A stretch of DNA of 64,000 bases from [Clostridium] clostridioforme AGR2157 (GTDB lineage Bacteria > Bacillota > Clostridia > Lachnospirales > Lachnospiraceae): assembly GCF_000424325.1 (NCBI RefSeq), contig NZ_AUJR01000009.1, positions 1 to 64,000 on the forward strand, read 5' to 3'. The translations under genes and the position numbers were made by a program. Below are positions 1 through 61,164 of the stretch, in pieces. The first letter of the stretch is position 1, and every line of letters begins with the position of its first letter. Below the pieces are notes generated by a model. The model did no database searches, was not told where the DNA came from, and saw nothing but the letters and a program-made list of their open reading frames with translations.

Positions 1-87
1 TGAAAGTCCGAGTAAACTATTGAACCGCGTAGTACCGAACGGTACGCTACGTGGTGTGGAAGGGGAGGTTAAAATCTCCCCTATCCG
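1..87 (+). mobile_element. 3' end of a group II intron (domains V and VI)
   Basis: Bases 22-56 fold into a 34-35 nt hairpin typical of group II intron domain V: ACCGCGTAG pairs with CTACGTGGT, and an inner TACC/GGTA stem is closed by GAAC. It is followed by a domain VI-like hairpin, AGGGGAG (61-67) with CTCCCCT (76-82). This arrangement is characteristic of bacterial group II intron 3' ends. The body of the intron and any reverse transcriptase gene lie outside the window. The exact 3' splice site is uncertain (about 84-87). A perfect palindrome, CCGATTTTAAAATCGG, follows at 85-100. Confidence 0.7.
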
Positions 88-143
88 ATTTTAAAATCGG
101 TTTATAACATCCCCCATTTATACAAAGAAAGGAAGAAATATTT

Positions 144-3100
144 ATGGAATCCAAACAGAAACAGCCCGGACTGTATGAACCACGTTTTGAGCACGATAAC
201 TGCGGCATCGGCGCCGTGGCCAATATAAAGGGCATCAGGAGCCACCACACAGTGGACCAGGCCCTTCATATAGTTGAAAATCTGGAACACAGGGCAGGAA
301 AGGACGCCGAGGGCAAGACAGGGGACGGAGTGGGAATCATGCTCCAGATTTCCCACGGATTTTTTAAGAAGGTGACAGAACCCCTGGGCTTTCAGCTAGG
401 AGGCGAGAGGGAGTATGGCGTGGGCATGTTCTTCTTCCCCCGGGATGAACTGATTCGCAGCCAGGCCATGAAGATGTTTGAGATCATTGTGCGCAAGGAG
501 GGCATGACCTTCCTGGGATGGAGGGTGGTCCCCACTGCCCCTGAGATTCTCGGCAAGAAGGCCGTGGACGTGATGCCCTATATTGCCCAGGGCTTTGTGG
601 GCAAACCCACCGGAATGAAGGCAGGACTGGATTTTGACAGAAAGCTATACATAGCCCGCCGCGTATTTGAGCAGAGCAACGAGGACACCTATGTGGTATC
701 CTTAAGCAGCAGGACTATTGTGTATAAAGGCATGTTTCTGGTGGGTGAGCTGAGGCTGTTTTTTTCAGATCTCCAGGATGAGGATTATAAGTCGGCCATT
801 GCCATTGTCCATTCCAGATTCAGCACCAACACCAATCCCAGCTGGATGCGGGCCCATCCCTACCGCTTCATTGTCCACAACGGTGAAATCAATACCATCC
901 GCGGCAATGTGGATAAGATGGTGGCCAGGGAGGAGAACATGGAATCCGAGTATTTCAGATACGACATGCACAAGGTGCTGCCCATCATAAACCAGGAAGG
1001 CTCTGATTCCGCCATGCTGGACAATGCCCTGGAATTTATGGTCATGAGCGGCATGGACCTGCCCCTGGCCGTCATGGTCACCATTCCCGCGCCCTGGGAA
1101 AATGACAAGTACATGGACAGCGAAATAAAGGATTTCTACCGCTATTACGCCACCATGATGGAGCCATGGGACGGACCTGCCTCCATCCTGTTCACGGACG
1201 GCGACGTGGTGGGGGCTGTGCTGGACAGAAACGGGCTGCGTCCCTCCCGGTACTACATAACAGAGGACGGCTGCATGATACTGGCCTCTGAGGTGGGCGC
1301 CATTGACATTGACCAGACAAAGGTGGTGAAAAAGGACCGTCTGCGTCCCGGCAAAATGCTGCTGGTGGATACAAAGCAGGGAAGGCTCATTGATGATGAT
1401 GAGCTTAAGCACTGCTATGCGTCCCGCAACCCATACGGGGAGTGGCTGGATTCCAACCTGTTCAATATAAAGGACCTTCCGGTGCCCAACAAAGGCATCC
1501 CCGCCATGAAGGACGAGGAGCGGCTGAGGCTACAGAAAACATACGGTTACACCTATGAACAGTATAAGACCATGATTCTTCCCATGGCCCTGAACGGTGC
1601 GGAGGCTGTGTCTGCCATGGGCGTGGACAGTCCCCTGGCTGTGCTGTCAAAGAAGCACCAGCCCCTGTTCAACTACTTTAAGCAGCTCTTTGCCCAGGTG
1701 ACCAATCCGCCCATTGACGCCATCCGCGAGGAAATCGTGACTTCCACAACGGTCTATGTGGGTGAGGAGGGCAACATACTGGAGGAGACAGCGGAAAACT
1801 GCAAAATCTTAAAAGTGGAGAATCCCATCCTGACAGAGACGGATTTGCTTAAAATTAAGAACATGAAGAAGCCCGGTTTCAAGGTGGAGGTGATTCCCAT
1901 TACCTACTACAAGAATACATCCCTTGAAAAGGCTATTGACCGCCTGTTCCTGGAGGTGGACCGGGCCCACAAGGACGGCGCCAATATTATCATACTCTCA
2001 GACCGGGATATTGATGAGAACCATGTGCCAATCCCGTCCCTGCTGGCTGTGTCGGCCCTGCAGCAGTACCTGGTAAGGACCAAGAAACGCACCGGCGTGG
2101 CCCTGATACTGGAAAGCGGTGAGCCCAGGGAGGTCCATCATTTTGCCACCCTGCTGGGGTACGGGGCCTGTGCCGTCAACCCCTATCTGGCCCACGAGTC
2201 CATCCGTTCCCTGATTGCCTCCGGCATGCTGGATAAGGACTATTACGCGGCTGTCTGCGACTATGATTTGGCTGTGCTCCACGGCATTGTGAAGATTGCC
2301 TCCAAGATGGGCATATCCACCATCCAATCCTACCAGGGCGCCCAGATTTTTGAGGCCATCGGCATTTCAAAGGATGTGGTGGATAAATATTTTACTGATA
2401 CGGTGAGCCGTGTGGGCGGCATTACATTAAAGGATATTGCAGGTGATGTGGATGCCCTTCACTCCGCTGCCTTTGATCCTCTGGGGCTGGACGTGGATTT
2501 GACCCTGGAAAGCGTTGGCAGCCACAAGTCCCGCTCCGGTGAGGAGGATCACCTTTATAATCCCCTGACCATCCACCTTCTTCAGGAGGCGGCCAGGACA
2601 GGTAATTATGACATCTTTAAACAATATACGGCCCAGGTGGACAGAGAAGATAAGATGTACCATCTGCGCTCCCTGATGGATTTTGACTTTCCTGAGGACG
2701 GAGGCATTCCCCTGGACCAGGTAGAGTCCGTGGAATCCATTGTCAGGCGGTTTAAGACAGGGGCTATGTCCTACGGCTCCATCTCCCAGGAGGCCCATGA
2801 ATGCCTGGCCATTGCCATGAACCGGATTCACGGTAAATCCAACACAGGGGAGGGCGGCGAGAGCCTGGACCGCCTGATTCCGGGACCTGCGGGGAACAAC
2901 CGCTGTTCCGCCATCAAGCAGGTGGCTTCCGGCCGTTTCGGAGTCACCAGCCGCTATCTGGTAAGCGCCCAGGAGATTCAGATAAAGATGGCCCAGGGCG
3001 CAAAGCCGGGGGAAGGCGGCCAGCTGCCCGGAGGCAAGGTTTATCCGTGGGTGGCAAAGACCAGACATTCCACCACAGGCGTCAGCCTTATCTCGCCTCC

Positions 3101-4685
3101 GCCCCATCATGACATCTATTCCATTGAGGACCTGGCCCAGCTCATATACGATTTAAAGAATTCCAATACCAGGGCCCGGATATCCGTCAAGCTGGTATCA
3201 GAGGCCGGGGTGGGCACCGTGGCCGCTGGCGTGGCCAAGGCCGGGGCCCAGGTAATCCTGATCTCCGCCTATGACGGAGGAACAGGGGCAGCCCCCAGGA
3301 ATTCCATTTACAATGCAGGGCTTCCATGGGAGCTGGGGGTGGCGGAGGCCCATCAGACCCTGATTATGAACGGGCTTCGCGACAAGGTGATTCTGGAGAC
3401 AGACGGAAAGCTTATGACCGGAAGGGACGTGGCAATGGCCTGTATGCTGGGAGCGGAGGAATTCGGCTTTGCCACTGCGCCGTTGGTGACCCTGGGCTGT
3501 GTTATGATGCGTGTATGCAACCTGGACACCTGTCCCATGGGCATTGCCACCCAGAACCCGGAGCTGAGAAAGCGTTTCAGAGGTAAACCGGAGTATGTGG
3601 TGAACTTTATGCAGTTTATAGCAGAAGAGCTGCGCGGGTACATGGCAAGGCTGGGGGTGCGCACCGTGGATGAGCTGGTGGGCCGCACGGACCTTTTAAA
3701 GAGGCGTGAGAACCTTCCCCTTGGCCGGGCCGGCCAGGTGGATTTAAGCAGGATACTGGATAACCCCTATGAAGGCCGGGATGTGGCAGGATACAGTGGG
3801 AAACAGGTCTTTGATTTCCACCTGGAGGACACCATGGATGAGCAGGTGCTTTTAAGAAAATTCAAAAGCGCCCTTGGAAGCGGCCAGAAAAAAAGCCTTC
3901 AGGTGGAGGTGTCCAATGTGAACCGCACCCTGGGGACCATATTCGGATCCGAGATAACCAGGAAATACCCGGAAGGGCTTTCTGATGATACGTTTACCGT
4001 CAGCTGCAATGGAAGCGGAGGACAGAGCTTTGGGGCATTTATCCCAAGGGGACTGACCCTGGAGCTGGCAGGAGATTCCAACGACTATTTCGGCAAGGGA
4101 CTTTCCGGCGGCAAGCTGGTGGTGTATCCCCCGAAAGGCGTGCTCTTTAAGGCTGAGGAGAATATCATAATCGGCAATGTGGCCCTATACGGAGCTACCA
4201 GCGGAAAGGCGTTTATAAACGGAATCGCGGGGGAGCGCTTCTGCGTCCGAAATTCAGGAGCAACCGCTGTGGTGGAGGGCGTGGGGGACCACGGCTGTGA
4301 ATACATGACAGGCGGCTGCGTGGTGGTGCTGGGAGCCACGGGCAAGAACTTCGGGGCCGGCATGAGCGGCGGCATCGCCTATGTGCTGGACGAGGACCGC
4401 AGCTTTTACAAGCGCCTCAATAAGGAACTGGTATCCTTTGAGGAAGTGACCAACAAATACGATGTACTGGAACTGAAAGGCCTGATTGAAGAACATGTGG
4501 CCTGCACCAACTCTCTGAAAGGCGGGCGGATCCTGGAGCATTTCAGTGAATACCTGCCCAAGTTCAAGAAGGTTGTTCCCCATGATTACCGGCGTATGAT
4601 GAATGCCATTGTGCAGATGGAGGAAAAGGGACTGAACAGCGAACAGGCGCAGATTGAGGCATTTTACGCCAATTTAAGAGGTTAA
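144..4685 (+). CDS. gltB: Glutamate synthase, large subunit
   Basis: This is the large subunit of glutamate synthase, which transfers the amide nitrogen of glutamine to 2-oxoglutarate to make two glutamates. At 1513 residues it has the usual full length. The N-terminal Ntn-type glutaminase begins at Cys20 (motif CGIGAV), so a 19-residue propeptide is expected to be removed. The FMN/synthase domain carries the 3Fe-4S cysteines at about 1119, 1125 and 1130 (CVMMRVCNLDTC), and a GXGXG-rich beta-helix forms the C-terminus. An AGGAAG ribosome site sits 8 bases before the ATG. gltD follows after 15 bases. No promoter is visible between the intron end and the gene, so transcription may enter through the intron. 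Confidence 0.97.
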   Translation: MESKQKQPGLYEPRFEHDNCGIGAVANIKGIRSHHTVDQALHIVENLEHRAGKDAEGKTGDGVGIMLQISHGFFKKVTEPLGFQLGGEREYGVGMFFFPRDELIRSQAMKMFEIIVRKEGMTFLGWRVVPTAPEILGKKAVDVMPYIAQGFVGKPTGMKAGLDFDRKLYIARRVFEQSNEDTYVVSLSSRTIVYKGMFLVGELRLFFSDLQDEDYKSAIAIVHSRFSTNTNPSWMRAHPYRFIVHNGEINTIRGNVDKMVAREENMESEYFRYDMHKVLPIINQEGSDSAMLDNALEFMVMSGMDLPLAVMVTIPAPWENDKYMDSEIKDFYRYYATMMEPWDGPASILFTDGDVVGAVLDRNGLRPSRYYITEDGCMILASEVGAIDIDQTKVVKKDRLRPGKMLLVDTKQGRLIDDDELKHCYASRNPYGEWLDSNLFNIKDLPVPNKGIPAMKDEERLRLQKTYGYTYEQYKTMILPMALNGAEAVSAMGVDSPLAVLSKKHQPLFNYFKQLFAQVTNPPIDAIREEIVTSTTVYVGEEGNILEETAENCKILKVENPILTETDLLKIKNMKKPGFKVEVIPITYYKNTSLEKAIDRLFLEVDRAHKDGANIIILSDRDIDENHVPIPSLLAVSALQQYLVRTKKRTGVALILESGEPREVHHFATLLGYGACAVNPYLAHESIRSLIASGMLDKDYYAAVCDYDLAVLHGIVKIASKMGISTIQSYQGAQIFEAIGISKDVVDKYFTDTVSRVGGITLKDIAGDVDALHSAAFDPLGLDVDLTLESVGSHKSRSGEEDHLYNPLTIHLLQEAARTGNYDIFKQYTAQVDREDKMYHLRSLMDFDFPEDGGIPLDQVESVESIVRRFKTGAMSYGSISQEAHECLAIAMNRIHGKSNTGEGGESLDRLIPGPAGNNRCSAIKQVASGRFGVTSRYLVSAQEIQIKMAQGAKPGEGGQLPGGKVYPWVAKTRHSTTGVSLISPPPHHDIYSIEDLAQLIYDLKNSNTRARISVKLVSEAGVGTVAAGVAKAGAQVILISAYDGGTGAAPRNSIYNAGLPWELGVAEAHQTLIMNGLRDKVILETDGKLMTGRDVAMACMLGAEEFGFATAPLVTLGCVMMRVCNLDTCPMGIATQNPELRKRFRGKPEYVVNFMQFIAEELRGYMARLGVRTVDELVGRTDLLKRRENLPLGRAGQVDLSRILDNPYEGRDVAGYSGKQVFDFHLEDTMDEQVLLRKFKSALGSGQKKSLQVEVSNVNRTLGTIFGSEITRKYPEGLSDDTFTVSCNGSGGQSFGAFIPRGLTLELAGDSNDYFGKGLSGGKLVVYPPKGVLFKAEENIIIGNVALYGATSGKAFINGIAGERFCVRNSGATAVVEGVGDHGCEYMTGGCVVVLGATGKNFGAGMSGGIAYVLDEDRSFYKRLNKELVSFEEVTNKYDVLELKGLIEEHVACTNSLKGGRILEHFSEYLPKFKKVVPHDYRRMMNAIVQMEEKGLNSEQAQIEAFYANLRG

Positions 4686-4700
4686 GGAGGCAGAACAATC

Positions 4701-6188
4701 ATGGGAAAAGCAACAGGATTCTTAGAATATGGGAGAGAAGTGGGAAGGGGTGAAGCTCCTGAGGAACGAATTAAAAACTGGAATGAGTTTCACACGCCCT
4801 TAAGCGAGGAGGAACAGAGACGCCAGGGGGCCAGGTGCATGGACTGCGGCGTGCCATTCTGCCAGTCAGGCATGATGATTGGCGGTATGGTCAGCGGATG
4901 CCCCCTGCACAACCTGGTGCCGGAATGGAACGACCTGGTGTATACCGGAAACTGGAAACAGGCATACAACCGGCTTAAGAAAACCAACAGCTTCCCGGAG
5001 TTCACCTCCAGGGTATGCCCGGCCCCCTGCGAGGCGGCCTGTACCTGCAGCCTGTACGGGTATGCAGTGACCGTGAAGGAAAATGAGAGGGCCATCATCG
5101 AAAAGGCATACGACAGCGGATATGCCCTCCCCAATCCGCCCTCCATCCGCACCGGCAAAAAGGTGGCAGTTATCGGATCCGGTCCCGCGGGCCTGGCTGC
5201 TGCGGACCAGTTGAACAAACGGGGGCACAGCGTCACTGTATTTGAACGGAATGACCGTGTGGGCGGACTGCTGATGTACGGCATACCCAACATGAAGCTG
5301 GAAAAATGGGTTATTGACCGCAAGGTGGATGTGATGAAGAAGGAAGGCGTCACCTTTGTGACGGGAGCGGACGTGGGCAGGAATTACCGGGTCAACAAAA
5401 TCAGGAAGGAATTTGACCGCATCATCCTGGCCTGCGGGGCCTCCAACCCAAGGGATATCGATGTGCCGGGCAGGGACAGTGCAGGCATATACTTTGCGTT
5501 GGATTTTCTGAAAGCCACCACCAAGAGCCTGCTGGATTCCGGGCTGGAGGACGGAAGTTTCATATCGGCAAAGGATAAGCATGTGCTGGTAATCGGAGGC
5601 GGGGACACTGGAAATGACTGTGTAGGCACATCCATCCGGCACGGCTGCGCCTCAGTCACCCAGTTAGAGATGATGCCCAAACCTCCCGTGGAGCGGGCGG
5701 AGAACAACACCTGGCCGGAATGGCCCAGAATCCTCAAGACAGATTACGGCCAGGAGGAGGCCATAAGCATATTCGGTTCAGACCCAAGGCAGTACCAGAC
5801 CACTGTGAAGGAATTCATAAAGGACGGGGAAGGCAAGGTATGCAAGGCCATAATCACAAACCTGGTTCCCAGGAAAGACGAGGAAACAGGCTGCACCGTC
5901 ATGGCAGCCGTAGAAGGAAGCGAGCGCGAAATCCCCGCCGACCTGGTACTCATAGCCGCCGGCTTCACAGGAACTCAAGCCTACGTAGCAGACGCCTTCG
6001 GCGTAGACCTGGACGCCAGGACAAATGTAGCCACAGAACACGGCGCCTACCGCACCAGCGCAGACCAGATATTTACAGCCGGCGACATGCACCGGGGCCA
6101 GTCACTGGTAGTATGGGCCATTCGCGAAGGCCGCGAAGCCGCCAAAGCCGTAGACAGGGATATGATGGGGTATACAAACCTGGCCTAG
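4701..6188 (+). CDS. gltD: Glutamate synthase, small subunit
   Basis: The small subunit (495 residues) supplies electrons from NAD(P)H to GltB. The N-terminal third has the cysteine clusters of the FAD-dependent GltD/DPD family (CMDCGVPFC near 42-50, CPAPCEAACTC near 105-115) that bind 4Fe-4S centres. A first Rossmann motif for FAD (GSGPAGLAAA) is near residue 155, and a second for the nicotinamide cofactor (GGGDTG) is near residue 297. It is preceded by AAGGAGG and is clearly in one operon with gltB. The last ~300 bases use codons with more GTA, ACA and ATA than the rest of the gene. Confidence 0.96.
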   Translation: MGKATGFLEYGREVGRGEAPEERIKNWNEFHTPLSEEEQRRQGARCMDCGVPFCQSGMMIGGMVSGCPLHNLVPEWNDLVYTGNWKQAYNRLKKTNSFPEFTSRVCPAPCEAACTCSLYGYAVTVKENERAIIEKAYDSGYALPNPPSIRTGKKVAVIGSGPAGLAAADQLNKRGHSVTVFERNDRVGGLLMYGIPNMKLEKWVIDRKVDVMKKEGVTFVTGADVGRNYRVNKIRKEFDRIILACGASNPRDIDVPGRDSAGIYFALDFLKATTKSLLDSGLEDGSFISAKDKHVLVIGGGDTGNDCVGTSIRHGCASVTQLEMMPKPPVERAENNTWPEWPRILKTDYGQEEAISIFGSDPRQYQTTVKEFIKDGEGKVCKAIITNLVPRKDEETGCTVMAAVEGSEREIPADLVLIAAGFTGTQAYVADAFGVDLDARTNVATEHGAYRTSADQIFTAGDMHRGQSLVVWAIREGREAAKAVDRDMMGYTNLA

Positions 6189-6283: not shown

Positions 6284-6435
6284 CCATCTTGAAGGAGCGC
6301 AGCGGATTCAAGATGGCAGCACTGCGGATTCAAGATGGCAGCACTGCGGACTCAAGATGGCAACGCAGCGGATTATCACCGCGAACTTAAGACAGCAACG
6401 CAGCGGACTCAATGATGGCAGCACTGCAAACTCAC
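6284..6435. repeat. Degenerate 22-bp direct repeats
   Basis: Five tandem units begin at 6302, 6324, 6346, 6368 and 6403. The core is GCGGATTCAAGATGG followed by CAGCACT or CAACGCA. The first two units are identical; the fourth has a 13-base expansion. The segment TTCAAGATGG (6307-6316) is also the reverse complement of 6284-6293, so the array can form a hairpin. No coding function is seen. Confidence 0.75.
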
Positions 6436-7016: not shown

Positions 7017-7300
7017 TCGATATTCAGACACTATGAAAAAGAGGAAGAATATGTTAGAGTAAAGCAATCAGAACACCTCAGATTATCTCAGACTATATTA
7101 GAGCATCTCAGACAATATCAGTGCATATCGGACAATATCAGAGTATCTTGACCCTAACCTCCCCCTCCGCATACCAATCCTGCCAAACGCATTCCGCAGA
7201 AAACAGCAGCCGGAAAAACGCCGGAAAACCGTCCGTGCGCCACCAAAGAACCGCTAAAGACACTTCCTGATATTATCAGAAAAATCCACACAGTTTCTAT
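7017..7300. other. Non-coding stretch with short AT-rich repeats
   Basis: No gene is seen. Between about 7075 and 7150 the motif ATCTCAGA or ATATCAG/CGGAC recurs at roughly 10-16 base spacing (CTCAGATTATCTCAGAC, then GCATCTCAGACAATATCAG and further copies). The rest, up to the promoter at 7301, is featureless. Confidence 0.5.
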
Positions 7301-46926: not shown

Positions 46927-47088
46927 GAAGGATGACACCATATGTCTTGACTTTATCCAGTGAATGTGCCACAATATTCAATTGACAGGCTTTACAACCA
47001 GGGCTTTGTCAGGACGGGGCGGCGGATGGTTTTGCTTGCTTTAGGGACTGGCAGGGCTTCGGATATTGAGAAAGAGGGAAAGAATAAA

Positions 47089-48210
47089 ATGACAAAGATT
47101 GATATTATCTCCGGATTCCTGGGAGCGGGCAAGACCACGTTCATTAAGAAGCTCCTGGAGGAGGCCATTGCCGGAGAACAGGTTGTCCTGATTGAGAATG
47201 AGTTTGGCGAGATTGGAATTGACGGCGGTTTCCTGAAGGATTCAGGCATTGAAATCCGGGAGATGAATTCAGGCTGCATCTGCTGCTCCCTGGTAGGTGA
47301 TTTCGGCACATCCCTGGCTGAAGTGCTGACACAATACAAACCGGAGCGTATCATCATCGAGCCATCCGGCGTGGGCAAGCTGTCAGATGTGATGAAGGCA
47401 GTCATTGACGTATCGGCTGACATGGATGTGGAGCTAAACAGCGCTGTGACCATTGTGGATGCGGCAAAATGCAAGATGTACATGAAGAATTTCGGAGAGT
47501 TCTTCAATAACCAGATAGAGAATGCGGGAACCATCGTACTGAGCCGTACGGATATTACCGATGCTTCTAAGATACAGAAGGATGTGGACATGATTCGGGA
47601 GAAGAACGCCAATGCTGTCATCATCACCACTCCTTTGGACCAGCTTGGTGGAAGCCAGCTTCTGGAAATTATTGAGAAGAAGGATACCATGCTGGATGAT
47701 TTGCTGGCAGAGGTGCGGGAGAGCCGTCTTGACCACGACCATGACCATGGCGAGGAGAGCCACGACCATCACCACCATGACCACGACGGGGAATGCTGCG
47801 GGCACCATGACCATGACCACGGTGAGGAATGCCACGACCATCACCACCACGACCACGGTGAGGAATGCCATGACCATCATCACGATGGCTGCGGTCATGA
47901 CCATCACGACCATCACCATCATCATGCGGACGAGGTGTTTACCAGCTGGGGAATGGAAACCATTGTTCCGGTGACCCGTGAACAGCTGGAGGATGTCCTG
48001 AAACGTCTTTCCTCCACCAGGGAGTTTGGAAATGTGTTAAGGGCCAAGGGGATGCTCCCCACAGAGAATCCTGGCGAGTGGCTGTATTTTGATCTGGTGC
48101 CGGAACAGTATGAAATCCGCCAGGGCAGGCCGGATTATACAGGCAAGGTATGCGTGATTGGCGCCAGCCTGAAAGAGGAAGAGCTGAACAGCGTATTCGG
48201 CAGAGGCTGA
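47089..48210 (+). CDS. COG0523 (CobW/ZNG1-like) GTPase with His-rich metal loop
   Basis: This 373-residue G3E-family GTPase is of the COG0523 group of metallochaperones. Walker A GFLGAGKT is at 9-16, the metal-binding CICC motif at 63-66, and a guanine specificity segment (SRTDITD) near 157. Residues ~213-281 form a histidine/aspartate-rich stretch with more than 30 histidines, able to hold several metal ions. The CobW C-terminal domain follows. The start at 47089 has GAGGG upstream. Its place close to znuABC points to zinc, but nickel or cobalt cannot be excluded. It is probably co-transcribed with the next gene. Confidence 0.9.
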   Translation: MTKIDIISGFLGAGKTTFIKKLLEEAIAGEQVVLIENEFGEIGIDGGFLKDSGIEIREMNSGCICCSLVGDFGTSLAEVLTQYKPERIIIEPSGVGKLSDVMKAVIDVSADMDVELNSAVTIVDAAKCKMYMKNFGEFFNNQIENAGTIVLSRTDITDASKIQKDVDMIREKNANAVIITTPLDQLGGSQLLEIIEKKDTMLDDLLAEVRESRLDHDHDHGEESHDHHHHDHDGECCGHHDHDHGEECHDHHHHDHGEECHDHHHDGCGHDHHDHHHHHADEVFTSWGMETIVPVTREQLEDVLKRLSSTREFGNVLRAKGMLPTENPGEWLYFDLVPEQYEIRQGRPDYTGKVCVIGASLKEEELNSVFGRG

Positions 48211-59781: not shown

Positions 59782-61164
59782 CTATTTCCATTGATTGCTC
59801 AAAAAGTCTACGATATCCGCTGCCTTAGGCGGACAGCCGCCCATAGTTTTGGCGAAGCAGGAGGTACATTGGCCCACGCCGATGGCGCCCTCCTGTCCCT
59901 TGTAGCCCTGGCCGATGCATACAGGAGGCAGGCCCTTCCTCAGATATCCCATATCGTTCAGACGGTCCAGGGCGTATATAAGGGAGCCGTAGCAGGCGCT
60001 GCACGCATCTTCCGGTGCCGTGTAGGCAGCCAGGTGCTGTACGCGCCTGGTCATGCGGAATTTGCTGTCGGCCTCCGTTTGATTGCTCAAAAAGTCTACG
60101 ATATCCGCTGCCTTAGGCGGACAGCCGCCCATAGTTTTGGCGAAGCAGGAGGTACATTGGCCCACGCCGATGGCGCCCTCCTGTCCCTTGTAGCCCTGGC
60201 CGATGCATACAGGAGGCAGGCCCTTCCTCAGATATCCCATATCGTTCAGACGGTCCAGGGCGTATATAAGGGAGCCGTAGCAGGCGCTGCACGCATCTTC
60301 CGGTGCCGTGTAGGCAGCCAGGTGCTGTACGCGCCTGGTCATGCGGAATTTGCTGTCGGCCTCCGTTGCCTTGTTCAGATAAATCATGTTGGCGCGGGCC
60401 GTGTCCGTGCTTCCCACACCCAGGTTCCTGGCCATGGTTATGTATGGCACGTCGTCCACTGAGTAACCCATGCAGTCACATACGAAGGCATCGCAGAGCA
60501 CCGGGTCTTTAAAGCCCAGCACACGGTTCATGACCACGGGATTGCCTCCCTCCTCAAAATCCAAATCACCGCAGATATTGTCCACCAGGATGAAGTCATT
60601 GCGGGCAATGGTATTTAGGTGGGCAATGGGCTTGTGAAGCCCCAGGGTGTGGAAGCGGCGTTTTTCCGAGTTGGGAATCACGCCCTTGTTGTTTTTCAGG
60701 GCGCAGGTCACAGTGGTCTGGCAGTGGCCCTTCAGCACAGGCATGTTAATCATGTAATCCACCGCAGCTGCCTTGTCGCACAGCTTAATTTTCATTCCTC
60801 CGGCATCGTATTCCTTCCAGGTATCACGCTGCAGGTCCACGAAGGGGACGCCATATCGCCTGCACACCTGATGGTATCCTGCGGCCTGGAAGGCGTCTTC
60901 CGTGTGGTCGCCAACCCAGGAACCCTCCATGATTGTGATGTTTTGAAAGCCGTGTTCCTGGAGGTATTCTATGACACCTGCCAGCAGCTCACCGTGGGTG
61001 GTGGCTCCGCTGGAGGGCGCCTTGGCAGTCACCAGATTGGGCTTTAATGCCACCTTTTTATTTAAATCACCGATGTCTGCCGCCACGCCGGCCTGTTCCA
61101 GGACCCGCTTGGCCATGTTCTTGTAATCGGTTCCGTGTATGATGATGATATCATTCTTTTCCAT
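59782..61164 (-). CDS. DUF362 iron-sulfur protein with a duplicated C-terminal segment
   Basis: This 460-residue protein belongs to DUF362, a family of uncharacterised proteins often containing iron-sulfur sites. Residues ~1-265 cover the DUF362 domain (LKPNLVTAKAPSSGATTHGE near 42 in part, VLKGHCQTTVTCALKNNKG near 152). A 96-residue C-terminal unit then occurs twice, without any amino-acid change. Each carries a CSACYGSL pair and GQCTSCFAKTMGGCPPKA, giving six cysteines per copy. Without the duplication the protein would be 364 residues. The start has AGGAAAGG upstream. No partner gene is adjacent. Confidence 0.88.
   Translation of the reverse strand: MEKNDIIIIHGTDYKNMAKRVLEQAGVAADIGDLNKKVALKPNLVTAKAPSSGATTHGELLAGVIEYLQEHGFQNITIMEGSWVGDHTEDAFQAAGYHQVCRRYGVPFVDLQRDTWKEYDAGGMKIKLCDKAAAVDYMINMPVLKGHCQTTVTCALKNNKGVIPNSEKRRFHTLGLHKPIAHLNTIARNDFILVDNICGDLDFEEGGNPVVMNRVLGFKDPVLCDAFVCDCMGYSVDDVPYITMARNLGVGSTDTARANMIYLNKATEADSKFRMTRRVQHLAAYTAPEDACSACYGSLIYALDRLNDMGYLRKGLPPVCIGQGYKGQEGAIGVGQCTSCFAKTMGGCPPKAADIVDFLSNQTEADSKFRMTRRVQHLAAYTAPEDACSACYGSLIYALDRLNDMGYLRKGLPPVCIGQGYKGQEGAIGVGQCTSCFAKTMGGCPPKAADIVDFLSNQWK
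59791..60366. repeat. Perfect 288-bp tandem duplication
   Basis: Bases 59791-60078 are identical to 60079-60366 over all 288 positions; base 60079 on the right is also matched by 60367. The unit is a multiple of three (96 codons), so the reading frame of the DUF362 gene is kept. No direct repeat longer than one base is seen at the borders. Confidence 0.98.

Follow-up and report, generated by a model that had tools for sequence, protein, structure and literature searches.

An exact in-frame tandem duplication of a C-terminal domain in a DUF362 gene from the draft genome of a gut bacterium

The window considered here, a stretch of 64,000 nucleotides, comes from the draft genome of a gut bacterium (4,943,165 bases in 133 contigs), and contains at 59782–61164, on the minus strand, an open reading frame of 460 codons plus stop. 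The product of this frame matches the Pfam family DUF362 (PF04015) over residues 38–230 (3.8e-51; 174.4 bits against a curated cut-off of 24), the match covering the whole of the profile (1–200 of 200). Comparison of the window with itself shows 59791–60078 and 60079–60366 to be adjacent direct copies of 288 bp at 100% identity, and the claim of the initial annotation that an exact in-frame 288-bp tandem duplication lies inside a DUF362 gene therefore stands: all 288 bases agree and, 288 being 3 × 96, the frame is kept throughout the 460-residue protein. In reading order the first unit (60079–60366, minus strand; 96 codons) provides residues 267–362 and the second (59791–60078, minus strand) the identical residues 363–458, after which the native last two codons, Trp-Lys (residues 459–460), and the stop occur once only (59782–59790, minus strand); several orthologues have similar ends. 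The self-match extends over 289 bp, exceeding the 288-bp period by the single base at 60367, and the novel junction between the copies falls at 60078/60079. When the whole of this genome was searched with the 288-bp unit, matches were found solely at the two tandem positions, which lie well within a contig of 122,326 bases. Since the profile match is to residues 38–230, the 96-residue unit is located beyond it, in the C-terminal part of the protein, and a Pfam search with the unit alone (E up to 0.01) matched no family.

Some other features of the window and genome may be recorded at this point. A 416-residue open reading frame at 46960–48210, which looks like a CobW-type metal-chaperone GTPase, includes a section (47732–47887) encoding imperfect His/Asp-rich repeats with periods of 36 bp and 72 bp, and past the end of a 495-residue frame at 4701–6188, presumably resembling a glutamate synthase small subunit, there are two short tandem arrays, at 6302–6374 (22 bp × 3.3) and 7085–7148 (20 bp × 3.2). 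The genome has two more DUF362 genes (G000:C10:26991–27800 and C31:62948–63595), in which the C-terminal unit is absent at E up to 0.001.

In structural terms, the boundaries of the unit can be considered using the predicted model of a single-copy orthologue, L003 (mean pLDDT 86.0, pTM 0.76), where residues 268–275 have pLDDT below 50 and the C-terminal domain extends from a helix at 277–283 to another at 352–362. The stretch 266–276 is poorly conserved (2 of 353 eleven-residue windows, itself included, are as low or lower), and the 5′ breakpoint, at residue 267, falls inside it, one residue ahead of the low-pLDDT segment; the other end of the repeat is two residues short of the native C-terminus. 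As modelled, the unit is a clean module consisting of the linker and the entire C-terminal domain, such that residues 1–362 would be intact with a second linker and domain added, it being borne in mind that this fit between breakpoints and domain boundary was spotted post hoc. For the doubled protein the predicted model has pLDDT 80.3 and pTM 0.63, and the second copy reproduces the order of helices and strands of the first, save that the last strand is reduced to two residues. Confidence in the second copy is lower (block-mean pLDDT 53–75), in part because the alignment is nearly empty there, just 3 of its 54 rows having any residue in this region, and those no more than two each.

The number of units in related genes is the observation that bears most directly on the doubling. 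Scanning named genomes yielded 385 orthologous loci, from which the best 80 were kept; in each of these 80 there is exactly one match to the unit, and their reading frames range from 362 to 382 residues, with 51 of the 80 at 363–365, in good agreement with the length of about 364 predicted in the initial annotation. The one unit present throughout the 80 loci kept is at odds with orthologues that all carry two diverged copies. Within the genus, the gene is found in 11 of 16 other genomes, with one unit in ten of them and, in the eleventh (G014), a contig end that cuts the gene before the unit is reached; six of the ten single-unit genes have an identical counterpart among the 80 loci, so that four are new. 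The five other genomes, three of which are 97–99% complete, gave no match to the DUF362 gene, implying that it is dispensable in the genus and hence that an altered protein could be tolerated.

Searching the family with the unit gave matches in 51 of 299 genomes (the present one included), two full copies being found in the present genome only; one further genome (G217) has two partial, overlapping pieces of the unit (12–67 and 52–94), which we would read as a single unit carrying an insertion. Likewise the 21-mer spanning the junction (60070–60090) occurs, with up to two mismatches allowed, in just one of 397 family genomes, namely this one. As these family samples mostly comprise one genome per genus (one other member of the genus is among the rows listed), they tell us little about close kin; more generally, the comparison covers one strain of the species, and records very near to the present genome may be missing from the locus scan. 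Among the genomes searched the duplication nonetheless appears specific to this one, a conclusion that is supported by the comparison with orthologues that the initial annotation proposed. In one genus member the DUF362 gene is split between two overlapping frames (G009:C4:47603–48684; loci L092 and L095), as a result of either gene decay or a fault in assembly. The surroundings of the gene vary: within flanks of up to 3 kb (shorter for some loci), the tRNA-editing and cytidine deaminase neighbours recur in only 5 of the 80 loci (L003–L006 and L028) and a hydrolase neighbour in 6, so that the neighbourhood gives no lead as to function.

As regards age, the lowest dS among the relatives compared is that of L084 (0.254 over the gene), and between the exact unit and L084 there are 20 differences in 288 bases. 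The initial annotation had offered a very recent event as one reading of the identity of the copies, but identity by itself does not establish this, as zero differences still permit an age of up to about 15–18% of that nearest-relative split (a 95% upper bound of roughly 0.15–0.18, from a simple Poisson calculation). Judged on these sequences, the duplication most likely postdates the split from L084.

At its borders the repeat has, as originally described, a homology of 1 bp; the accompanying suggestion that so short a match is unusual is not borne out, given that a match of 1 bp or more is found for 47% of random breakpoint pairs at a spacing of 288 bp. If imperfect homology is considered, the best identity over 8 bases is 6, which 601 of 4000 random pairs also attain, and predicted folding of single-stranded DNA for the three border stretches (z of −1.75, −2.10 and 0.30) gives nothing decisive. 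For the present repeat, the origin would most likely be a join of the template-switch kind, with end joining as the alternative. In E. coli, junctions of 1–4 bp for three deletions and of 3–30 bp for embedded inverted duplications are reported in one study, where template switching is proposed (PMC3161906).

Taken together, it seems fairly likely, with an appreciable margin of doubt, that the tandem duplication is genuine and specific to its lineage, this strain or species having acquired it from a single-copy DUF362 gene through a join at 1 bp of homology. The ancestor would have had the single-copy gene, and the join, made by template switching or by slippage that involved hardly any pairing, would by chance have started in the variable linker and ended two residues ahead of the native C-terminus with the frame kept; the first 362 original residues would thereby be retained and a second linker and C-terminal domain appended. 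The doubled gene would then be present in living cells and its protein would presumably still work, the extra domain being near-neutral and liable to be lost if the copies recombine. Instability is a general feature of tandem duplications. For P. aeruginosa it is reported that shorter duplications are lost more slowly, the rate being about 1e-4 per generation for one of 2.6 kb (PMC12607827). By extrapolation, a 288-bp repeat could last for many generations without selection.

The principal alternative, less likely but far from negligible, is that the repeat arose during assembly, through a loop in a short-read graph or unmerged overlapping contig ends, the cells themselves having one copy or some other number. 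This would fit with copies that are identical at 288 of 288 bases, with border homology no greater than chance and with a junction seen in no other genome searched, and it gains from the state of the draft, whose 133 contigs contain neither a 16S nor a 23S match, where G002 has four of each and G004 five. In the profile searches only a fraction of the candidates from this genome was scored (26 of 94, 21 of 96 and 10 of 75), and among 14 control genomes a match was obtained in 9 (16S) and 10 (23S), making the absence from the draft a soft one. An exact search for a 16S string, which we take to be the universal primer site, found none in the present genome, four in G002, five in G004 and none in G003 or G011, the last two having no 16S matches though 23S matches are present; sequence left out of the records searched could likewise account for missing matches. 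The likeliest explanation is a short-read draft that has lost its multi-copy repeats, in which case it is itself uncertain how many times an exact repeat of 288 bp occurs, the number depending on the assembly. On the other side of the argument, the assembler seems to have had no habit of duplicating: in the window and 20 sampled stretches (464 kb including 4 kb shared, about 9% of the genome) there was no exact self-match of at least 40 bp, at periods of 30–4999, besides this repeat, one further row (in L098) being the tail of the DUF362 repeat itself; the repeat is accordingly more than a chance match. Moreover the repeat lies far inside its contig, a join made at random would preserve the frame in one case out of three and rarely land on a domain boundary, and a loop in an assembly graph would normally need real junction reads.

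A functional reading of the doubling turns largely on the cysteines. The unit has six, as the initial annotation stated, but only four of them (C292, C295, C337 and C348) are invariant in all 60 aligned orthologues (rows chosen by the analyst from the 80 loci), C320 being present in 30 of the 60 and C340 in 36. Four cysteines in the N-terminal part (C129, C154, C198 and C224) are invariant in the same alignment, so that a site could be shared between the domains. It is plausible on the basis of this conservation that the protein has a candidate metal or iron-sulfur site, one that might require both domains; the earlier proposal that the second copy adds a second iron-sulfur site is not supported by this pattern, since a site could span the domains. 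No iron-sulfur domain family was matched in the Pfam search of the protein. The NCBIfam search gave three matches, all under their own cut-offs, and of these PRK01045.1-3 (the iron-sulfur enzyme 4-hydroxy-3-methylbut-2-enyl diphosphate reductase) is at E 0.17 over residues 5–79, outside the unit.

It is improbable that the duplication is an adaptive gain, with the extra C-terminal domain serving as a second site for a cofactor or partner and kept by selection. The duplicated piece is in frame and comprises a whole domain with its linker, and each unit brings four invariant cysteines, all of which would suit such a role; yet the doubling is in no other genome among those searched, there is zero divergence between the copies, no iron-sulfur domain family was matched, and with four more invariant cysteines N-terminal a further C-terminal domain might not by itself complete a site. 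An equally slight chance attaches to the fuller proposition that the added domain is folded, binds a cofactor or partner of its own and is maintained by selection, in which case a protein would have been caught at the very start of acquiring a repeated domain, with a copy number reversible by recombination. Gene conversion acts between tandem copies, and an old duplication homogenised in this way would leave copies that are adjacent and identical, as here, but this is the most improbable account of all: a single copy is present in L084 (dS 0.254) and in the remaining loci that extend as far as the unit, and with the nearest relative in that state the event is most simply placed after the split, leaving conversion unneeded. 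The preferred reading is that of a duplication that is probably real and near-neutral, most likely an ordinary and fairly young one in a dispensable gene.

Should it be real, the repeat captures a domain duplication that has yet to diverge, with ends at a linker and near the C-terminus and in a gene that is expendable in relatives, and would be a handy test case for asking if events of this kind become fixed, are neutral or soon vanish. Equally, an exact repeat in a draft that has no detectable rRNA genes calls for a check of the reads before any function is attributed to it. No mention of this duplication was found among the papers listed on tandem duplications or DUF362, the term DUF362 occurring in just 9 of the papers covered and most subscription journals lying outside that search; a search of viral contigs for a relative gave one stretch that fitted a pattern and none that was confirmed.

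Comparison with known systems can be made at three levels. The N-terminal domain of the predicted model has a structural match to the LarA-like fold of the lactate/malate racemases (LarA superfamily; Lar_N, PF09861), with 6–16% identity among the first 12 matches listed, but since these matches span mainly residues 10–270 the C-terminal domain that is doubled here is barely covered, and no claim of a new fold is made for it. A Pfam search of the protein (E up to 1) listed DUF362 alone and gave no Lar_N match; the Lar_N matches of this genome are on C5, C2 and C13, away from the doubled gene, and a sequence search of solved structures yielded nothing convincing (one hit, E 0.076, in a first search and none in a second). 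Across the genus genomes (G000–G016), LarC (PF01969) accompanies the DUF362 gene in 12 of 12 and occurs in 3 of the 5 that lack the gene, a co-occurrence that amounts to a weak lead towards the nickel-pincer cofactor. A link of the gene to that cofactor by this route was judged too weak to retain, and Lar_N proteins occur in 17 of 17 of these genomes; as the present genome has Lar_N proteins besides LarC, the presence of LarC is uninformative as to the cofactor of the DUF362 protein.

Relative to the Lachnospiraceae DUF362 orthologues of about 364 residues, the single-copy form of the protein aligns over its full length (95.9–96.7% identity to its nearest relatives, L003, L004 and L084), and the difference is that here the 96 residues preceding the last two are present twice. 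Among repeats within genes, a parallel is offered by phage EfV12-phi1, whose tail fibre gene has repeats of 1.8 kb that are likewise in-frame direct copies within one gene (PMC6365445). The DUF362 repeat is known from one genome's assembly and has no sign of selection, whereas those of the phage are reported from four parallel coevolution lines, backed by coverage, PCR and long reads (PMC6365445).
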